Origin: an uncultured bacterium | GTDB lineage: Bacteria; Verrucomicrobiota; Lentisphaeria; Victivallales; UBA1829 | Length of the DNA: 64,000 nucleotides | Assembly (NCBI GenBank): GCA_949297765.1 | Contig: CASFTV010000001.1 | Span: 310,001-374,000, forward strand | Direction: 5' to 3' | Shown here: positions 62,346 to 64,000 of the stretch, one piece after another | How positions within the stretch are numbered: the stretch's first letter is position 1 | How the letters are laid out: every line of letters starts with the position of its first letter | Notes under the pieces: model-generated | Seen by the model: the letters and a program-made list of their open reading frames with translations, nothing else | Database searches by the model: none | Told to the model about the DNA's origin: nothing | Translations under genes and position numbers: made by a program

Positions 62346-63713
62346 TCAACCGGGACGACCGATTTTCCCGGAAGGGTTTTCCCCGTTTCCGGAAGCAGGC
62401 GGAAGATTGCGGACAGAGAGCGGCTGGTCCGGAGTATTGAGCAGCCATGTGGTGACCGTCGGATAGGCGAAATTGAGGTGCGCCTCCGTAAAGCGCTTGA
62501 GGATCGCCAGATTCAGTTCCGTCCGCCAGCGCTCCTCCTGCGCGTAGGATTCGGTCTTCAGCCACAGGATCACGGTAATGTTCATGGAGGAGGAATCGAA
62601 TTTGGAAAAGAAGATGCGCGGGGCGAATCCGGGACGGTCCTGACCATGAAAATCATCGGTGATTTCATGGAGGATCCGGATGGCAAGTTCCATCTGTTCC
62701 GGCGTGGTATCATAGGTCAGGGTGACGTCGAACATGAGTTTGAGAAGATTTTTCTGATTGATGTTGCGGACCGGCTGGGTGGTCAACAGACTGTTCGGAA
62801 GGGTGTAGACCGATTCGTCGTCCGCGATGATCTTGGAACTCCGCATGCCGACCTCGCAGACAATTCCCTCCAGTTCGCCGACCTGGATGCGGTCGCCGAG
62901 CTTGAAGGGACGGTCAAAGAGAATGACGATTGTGCCGAAGAAATTGGAGAGGGTGTCCTTCGCCGCCAGCGCCACGCCGAGTCCGACAACTCCCGCTCCG
63001 GCGAGCAGTGCCGTAATATTGATCCGGAAAATACTCTGTCCGATGAAGAGAATGGTGGTGGCGAACACGAGGATCCGGAGAATGTTGCGCAGGACCTTCA
63101 CCATCAGATCGTCCAGGGAATTGTCGTCGCGTTTCGCCAGATTCTGGAGATGCACATCAATCACGCCGACCACATTCAGCGCCGCCCAGGCGGCGATCAT
63201 GCAGAGCAGCGTGAAAAAAATCCGGACATCGTAGAGAAACACCGTATCGGAAAACGAGGAAAGAATCGGATAAAACGCGAAGAACACGCAGACCACCGCC
63301 GCCGACAGAAACACCGGCGCATTGAATGCATGCAGCAGTTCCCAGAACAAATGCTTTTTCCGGGCGCGCTTCAGCTCCCGTTGAATCAGACGGCAGCAGA
63401 ACAGGCCGATCCCGAAACAGAGCAGAGCGGAAACCGTCGAAACGCCCAGAGCCTTCAGAAGTTTTTTCCCCTGCGCGGAAAACCAGCGGTTGACCTCCCG
63501 TTCCTGCCGGGTCAGCAGCTGTTCCAGCTCGCGGGGGGCCAGATCAGCGGGATCAATTCCGGCGGGAATCCGGGAATCCAGCCATTCAGCTCGTTTCTGT
63601 TCCACTGTTTTTCCGGCGGAAGGCTCCATTCCCCCCTCCGGCGCGGGAGATTCGGCAAAAGCAGAACAGAAGCAGGCAGCACATACAAACAGCAGCAGAA
63701 TGATCTTCGGCAT
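62346..63713 (-). CDS. MscS-type mechanosensitive ion channel
   Basis: 455 residues. ATG 63713 is preceded by ggaggggg, and the upstream frame runs through the promoter. A signal peptide (MPKIILLLFVCAACFCSAFA), a soluble periplasmic segment and four membrane helices come first. The pore helix TM3 is seen in LLAGAGVVGLGVALAAKDTL, where Gly/Ala packing is typical. The MscS beta domain FFGTIVILFDRPFKLGDRIQVGELEGIV and a C-terminal alpha-beta domain follow. It releases solutes under osmotic stress. Confidence 0.92.
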   Translation of the reverse strand: MPKIILLLFVCAACFCSAFAESPAPEGGMEPSAGKTVEQKRAEWLDSRIPAGIDPADLAPRELEQLLTRQEREVNRWFSAQGKKLLKALGVSTVSALLCFGIGLFCCRLIQRELKRARKKHLFWELLHAFNAPVFLSAAVVCVFFAFYPILSSFSDTVFLYDVRIFFTLLCMIAAWAALNVVGVIDVHLQNLAKRDDNSLDDLMVKVLRNILRILVFATTILFIGQSIFRINITALLAGAGVVGLGVALAAKDTLSNFFGTIVILFDRPFKLGDRIQVGELEGIVCEVGMRSSKIIADDESVYTLPNSLLTTQPVRNINQKNLLKLMFDVTLTYDTTPEQMELAIRILHEITDDFHGQDRPGFAPRIFFSKFDSSSMNITVILWLKTESYAQEERWRTELNLAILKRFTEAHLNFAYPTVTTWLLNTPDQPLSVRNLPPASGNGENPSGKIGRPG

Positions 63714-63755
63714 GACACCCCCTCCGGGAAATAATAAAATCCTCTTATCTTCGGC

Positions 63756-63784
63756 AATATACACGTTCCCGGGAAGAAATACAA
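63756..63784 (-). promoter_or_regulatory. promoter of the MscS gene
   Basis: On minus TTGTAT (63784-63779), 17-base spacer, TATATT (63761-63756). Confidence 0.6.
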
Positions 63785-63816
63785 GTCTCATCCGGGAGGA
63801 AGAGGACGGGCGGGAA

Positions 63817-63872
63817 GTGTGACACAATGTCCCGCATTGTCACACCGATCCGGTGCATGGCGCAGTGGGACA
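63817..63872. promoter_or_regulatory. palindromic cluster, candidate enhancer for the sigma54 promoter
   Basis: GTGTGACA (63817-63824) and TGTCACAC (63838-63845) are exact inverted repeats. A second pair, TGTCCC (63828-63833) / GGGACA (63867-63872), interlocks with them, and CACCG/CGGTG (63843-63855) adds a third. The first centre is about 90 bases before the -24 element, in the usual range for enhancer-binding activators. Confidence 0.55.
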
Positions 63873-63922
63873 CATGGGATTTCCCTGCCTGAAATGAGTG
63901 TAAAAAAAACTTTTTTGAAAAG

Positions 63923-63939
63923 TTGGCATCAGGATTGCT
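63923..63939 (+). promoter_or_regulatory. sigma54 (-24/-12) promoter
   Basis: TTGGCAT (63923-63929), five-base spacer, TTGCT (63935-63939) fits the TGGCAC-N5-TTGCW consensus with the GG and GC dinucleotides ten bases apart. It points to the right, toward a gene that starts beyond base 64000. Confidence 0.65.
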
Positions 63940-64000
63940 AGACACACACTGTAAAAAAAAACGGAAAAACCGGAAAACAATAACAGGAAAGGGTTTACTT

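Follow-up and report, generated by a model that had tools for sequence, protein, structure and literature searches.

A predicted sigma54-dependent control region of the dnaK-groES-groEL operon in a Victivallales bacterium and its likely NtrC-type regulator

The right-hand edge of the 64 000-nucleotide stretch of DNA analyzed here (the window; G000:C1:310001-374000), which comes from a Victivallales (Lentisphaeria) bacterium, is best read as the control region of a sigma54-dependent dnaK-groES-groEL operon that is under an NtrC-type response regulator and belongs to a chaperone (heat-shock) regulon. We give this reading a probability of about 0.85. The contig runs on past the window, and the ATG of dnaK lies on the plus strand at 64001, one base beyond the window's end, followed by groES and then groEL; DnaK and GroEL both score above curated cut-offs in a profile search. 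The initial annotation, made from the letters of the window alone, had placed a sigma54 promoter here and predicted that a plus-strand gene just to the right would be under a special programme. That gene proves to be dnaK, the programme is that of a chaperone operon with a conserved promoter and upstream site, and rpoN, without which the proposal would have failed, is complete in the genome with all three Pfam domains. For the activator, which had been left to be identified, the NtrC-type regulator described below is the likely answer.

Promoter and upstream site at the window edge

The features of the region are collected in Table 1. The -24/-12 element, previously described as a close match to the sigma54 consensus, matches TTGGCAT-N5-TTGCT exactly, with GG at 63925-63926 and GC at 63937-63938 spaced 10 bp apart, and transcription from it is expected to start near 63950. 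When 2 mismatches are allowed, matches in the window are no more frequent than expected (6 found, 7.2 expected), while this element alone in the whole window has fewer than two. None of 426 window tiles of 300 bp reaches 11/12, the last 100 bases being left untiled, and the 4.2-Mb genome contains sixteen matches to TTGGCATN5TTGCT with at most one mismatch. With GG and GC in a TTGGCAY-N5-TTGCT context, an rpoN gene, genes for enhancer-binding activators (EBPs) and a conserved site at looping distance, the criteria for a sigma54 promoter are met, and even without expression data we consider the element almost certain to be a real one.

Table 1. Features of the dnaK regulatory region (window positions)
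Feature	Position	Strand	Basis
MscS-type mechanosensitive channel gene, divergent; left border of the regulatory region	62346..63713	-	Pfam MS_channel domains
Putative core activator-binding site, GTGACA-CAA-TGTCCC	63819..63833	+	Sole GTGACA-N3-TGTCNC in the window; conserved before dnaK and clpB; no binding data
Third half-site, TGTCAC	63838..63843	+	Matching third half-sites in same-genus copies
Fourth half-site, GGGACA, inside the GGCGCAGTGKGWCA block common to same-genus copies	63867..63872	+	Sequence, comparison
A-/T-tracts separating the upstream site from the promoter; possibly intrinsically bent DNA aiding looping (inference)	63900..63922	.	Sequence
Sigma54 -24/-12 promoter element, TTGGCATCAGGATTGCT	63923..63939	+	Exact match; unique in the window at fewer than 2 mismatches; conserved before dnaK
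Probable dnaK ribosome-binding site, AGGAAAGGG	63985..63993	+	Sequence

Upstream of the promoter lies an array of half-sites whose conserved unit is GTGWCA-N3-TGNCNC, often extended by further half-sites 3-4 bp on. Among dnaK upstream regions that bear the promoter, 83% contain the unit at 10/11 or better, as against 2% of shuffles, and the median distance from the centre of the site to the -24 element downstream of it is 105 bp. One genome of family f16 has two exact copies of the unit, GAGACATTTTGTCAC and GTGACAAAATGTCTC. Three interlocking inverted repeats had been noted here in the initial annotation as the place where an activator would sit. Their arms are present (TGTCCC at 63828-63833 with GGGACA, the fourth half-site of Table 1; CACCG at 63843-63847 with CGGTG at 63851-63855), and the idea of an activator site is supported by the conserved array, but two of the proposed pairings are not. 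The 29-bp palindrome GTGTGACA-N13-TGTCACAC is exact at 63817-63845, with only 0.09 occurrences expected in the window at up to 3 mismatches; it joins the first half-site with the third (63817-63824 and 63838-63843), and was rejected as a functional unit because the conserved spacing is that of half-sites 3-4 bp apart. CACCG/CGGTG was likewise rejected, since the pair is missing from same-genus copies.

Beyond the window edge, the gap between dnaK and groES contains a very stable hairpin (L002 7924-8016, -28 kcal/mol, z -4.8). It lacks a clear T-run and may be an attenuator or an mRNA-processing site. Given this hairpin, co-transcription of groESL with dnaK is not shown and remains an inference.

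Conservation before dnaK and at other chaperone genes

We collected dnaK upstream regions from relatives and from elsewhere in the phylum, the latter limited where possible to a single genome for each family, and scored them against TTGGCAYN5TTGCT at a threshold of 10/12, with dinucleotide shuffles as the control. An element at or above the threshold is found in 83 of 91 distinct regions, compared with 1-3% of shuffles. By rank, it is present in 29/29 regions from the family, 31/32 from the order, 2/5 from other orders of the class (missing in three) and 21/25 from the rest of the phylum (missing in four); the dnaK ATG follows it at a median distance of 75 bp. In the 80 copies that were aligned, TGGCA and TGC vary little or not at all, while spacer and flanks do vary. 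Because related genomes share ancestry, the 91 regions are not independent events; despite that ancestry, the flanks of the conserved promoters have widely diverged. Conservation across the phylum suggests that an activator-driven switch governs these heat-shock chaperones, in place of the repressor or sigma factor that usually does so.

Ten matches to the site pattern are present in this genome, four of them close to good -24/-12 elements. These four combinations precede dnaK, clpB, an fmdB-like zinc-ribbon gene with htpG (Hsp90) behind it, and an unnamed gene (G000:C3:179877; L014 1501-2254) which has a chaperone-type site and an exact -24/-12 element in front and whose 228-aa product lacks any Pfam match. 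By our own estimate, well under 0.1 such coincidences of site and promoter would be expected by chance in the genome. With dnaK, groESL, clpB and htpG, all classical chaperone genes, the targets are those of a heat-shock regulon. The six other positions of the site pattern have no close -24/-12 element nearby, and one of them, C8:37493, is at a kinase gene discussed below. Identical site matches, GTGACAGGGTGGCAC, occur at G000:C2:205997 and G000:C52:5456, again with no -24/-12 element nearby, and are perhaps part of a repeated element.

A single search for clpB loci returned 15 related loci (Lentisphaeria, Victivallales, rumen relatives and one from Kiritimatiellota) and 11 unrelated ones from Clostridia and other groups. 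The Victivallales and Lentisphaeria labels of the close clpB relatives are what gives the organism its taxonomic position. All 15 related loci have a -24/-12 element of at least 10/12 within 300 bp and 14 have the site too, the exception (L253) having its -24/-12 element far upstream and no site; the combination of promoter and site was found in 0/11 of the unrelated loci.

Candidate activators and classical heat-shock regulators

Sigma54 is unable to open a promoter without an EBP. This genome encodes three real EBPs: a GAF-type NifA-like protein (G000:C6:55809-57356; L005), an NtrC-type response regulator (G000:C8:38713-40065) and RtcR. The NtrC-type regulator consists of receiver, AAA+ sigma54-interaction and Fis-type HTH domains, and just upstream is the gene of its cognate kinase, a soluble PAS histidine kinase of NtrB/AtoS type. 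It stays below the NCBIfam equivalog cut-offs for AtoC (496 of 714 bits, the best), NtrC (420 of 558.6) and ZraR (407 of 760). In six genomes (G011, G015, G017, G023, G024 and G042), all of which keep the dnaK promoter and most of which keep the site, it is the only EBP found; since sigma54 needs an EBP, this makes it the likely activator of dnaK. At 56-96% completeness, any one of these genomes could lack an EBP, yet it is less likely that the true activator is missing from all six. Although no binding data exist, we regard the NtrC-type regulator as very probably the activator of the dnaK promoter. RtcR was rejected for this role because it is part of an adjacent rtc-type locus. That locus (G000:C13:34014-36452; L007, L015, L016), which combines RtcR with an RtcA-like gene, has two exact TTGGCAT-N5-TTGCT promoters of its own, with upstream stretches so nearly identical that the promoter appears to have been duplicated.

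Across the phylum, the NtrC-type regulator has a clear best match in 35/35 sampled genomes, and the orthologues tested form one clade against the second-best paralogs with a support of 93/94, in a tree that did not include the RtcR row. Two strongly reduced 0.9-Mb genomes (G089 and G105; L281, L283) have a single EBP match, which is the orthologue of this regulator, together with a weak match to the dnaK promoter (10/12 in G089). The chaperone-type site also recurs close to where the kinase gene begins, exactly in 8/29 operons compared with 0/2900 shuffles, and at 10/11 or better in 14/29 operons compared with 1.6% of shuffles. In this genome, 6-7 bp separate the end of the site at C8:37493 from the kinase ATG that follows. 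This position suggests autoregulation, by repression or by activation, and we infer that the kinase-regulator operon is probably under its own regulator, by way of such a site.

HrcA-CIRCE and RpoH (sigma32) run dnaK, groESL, clpB and htpG in other bacteria; the target genes are the same as here, but neither of these regulators nor CIRCE was found. HrcA is absent from 61/61 genomes, with control genomes positive, and the dnaK upstream regions scanned for CIRCE showed none, which led us to reject an HrcA-CIRCE regulon for dnaK. An RpoH regulon was rejected as well, there being no RpoH above the curated cut-off in 31 genomes, with the caveat that the model used is proteobacterial.

We propose that sigma54-RNA polymerase would wait at the -24/-12 element until the PAS histidine kinase phosphorylates the NtrC-type regulator, which would then bind the GTGWCA-N3-TGNCNC array about 100 bp upstream, loop over and open the promoter through ATP hydrolysis. 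Phosphorylation and DNA binding are inferred, without expression or binding data. The same sigma54 switch is predicted to drive clpB and the fmdB-like/htpG pair, which would make it a general chaperone (heat-shock) programme of the lineage.

Alternative readings, known systems and significance

That the promoter match arose by chance within a plain sigma70 promoter, such as TTGAAA-18-TAGACA plus an extended -10, while the palindromes bind an unrelated repressor, can be argued from TTGAAA/TAGACA-type hexamers readable by eye around the element. Such hexamers were not reported by the consensus scan, and they are not conserved in the copies in which TGGCA and TGC are near-invariant, so that we find this explanation hardly credible. 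If the sigma54 promoter is accepted, another EBP such as the GAF-type NifA-like protein could still be its activator, with the NtrC-type regulator controlling something else. The GAF-type protein, whose targets are unknown, likewise occurs widely in the family, but it is missing from some family members and was not found in any of the six promoter-keeping genomes named above, for which reason it was rejected as the dnaK activator; nor is there a site just before its gene, in contrast to the kinase operon of the NtrC-type regulator in many genomes. We judge activation by another EBP to be quite improbable.

With the NtrC-type regulator taken as the activator, the weakest step is the inducing signal, since nothing but the identity of the target genes points to heat or unfolded protein; we lean towards this signal without much assurance. 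Sigma54 and the regulator might instead drive dnaK on a nutritional, redox or developmental signal, with chaperones as one output, a reading that suits a soluble PAS kinase of NtrB/AtoS type and recalls the late genes of Chlamydia, where the sigma54 regulon has been linked to conversion into infectious forms (PMC7482065). The targets are nevertheless the classical chaperone set, and no HrcA or RpoH turned up that could take on the heat-shock role, which leaves a signal other than heat the less likely case, though far from negligible. A tandem arrangement, in which a sigma70 promoter provides basal and the sigma54 promoter induced expression, is compatible with the sigma54-driven chaperone regulon and is a possibility that we rate a little short of even. 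DnaK is normally needed at all temperatures, and a sigma70-like match at 63712-63740, upstream of the activator site, may supply basal dnaK transcription. The hrcA-grpE(-dnaK) operon of Chlamydia trachomatis has tandem sigma66/sigma54 promoters (PMC7482065, PMC8762339). Against this, the match at the window edge is no more than a hit of a consensus scan, 260 bp before the dnaK ATG.

Sigma54 control of chaperones as such is not new, being known or predicted elsewhere. The groESL3 operon of Bradyrhizobium, whose activator is NifA, resembles the present case as a groESL operon behind a -24/-12 promoter, but differs in being one symbiosis-specific copy among several and not the main chaperone operon. 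Its expression is RpoN-dependent (PMC4842269). AtoS/AtoC (CtcB/CtcC) of Chlamydia similarly bring together sigma54, an NtrC-type regulator with its cognate kinase and a chaperone operon, a likeness of layout only, as no named chlamydial sequence was compared; unlike here, HrcA-CIRCE is in use and heat lowers rpoN. The HsfB/HsfA phosphorelay of Myxococcus acts on lonD (PMC9109919) and, as proposed here, has an NtrC-like response regulator that activates a heat-shock gene, directly in Myxococcus, but it concerns a single protease gene and secondary metabolism in one lineage, not dnaK-groESL. In Planctomycetota and Bacteroidota, GroEL, GroES, GrpE, DnaJ, DnaK, IbpA and ClpB-type COGs are enriched behind predicted sigma54 promoters, according to passages of a 2025 study (PMC12316311). 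That cluster is from other phyla and comes, in those passages, without a named activator or upstream site, whereas a defined site and a likely activator are described here for Verrucomicrobiota/Lentisphaeria. We found no earlier report of a sigma54 chaperone regulon, site or activator in Verrucomicrobiota/Lentisphaeria in the literature searched, which mostly excluded subscription journals.

Accounts of the heat-shock response in bacteria usually invoke sigma32 or repressors, HrcA among them. In the present case, clpB, htpG and the main chaperone operon seem to stand behind promoters that are silent without an ATP-driven activator, and this requirement predicts a tight chaperone switch. The proposal names a likely regulator and its DNA site and can be put to the test directly in relatives that are in culture, Akkermansia probably among them. 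It also offers a function for a two-component system which forms a single conserved clade phylum-wide and whose regulator is the sole EBP matched even in 0.9-Mb genomes. More tentatively, and at somewhat less than even odds, we suggest that throughout the phylum (GTDB Verrucomicrobiota, as sampled) the cytosolic chaperone response depends not on HrcA or RpoH but on sigma54 together with a single two-component system, inherited vertically and regulating itself, whose soluble PAS kinase signals heat or unfolded protein. If this is true, a major bacterial phylum would ancestrally have switched on its heat-shock genes by activation and not by release from repression.
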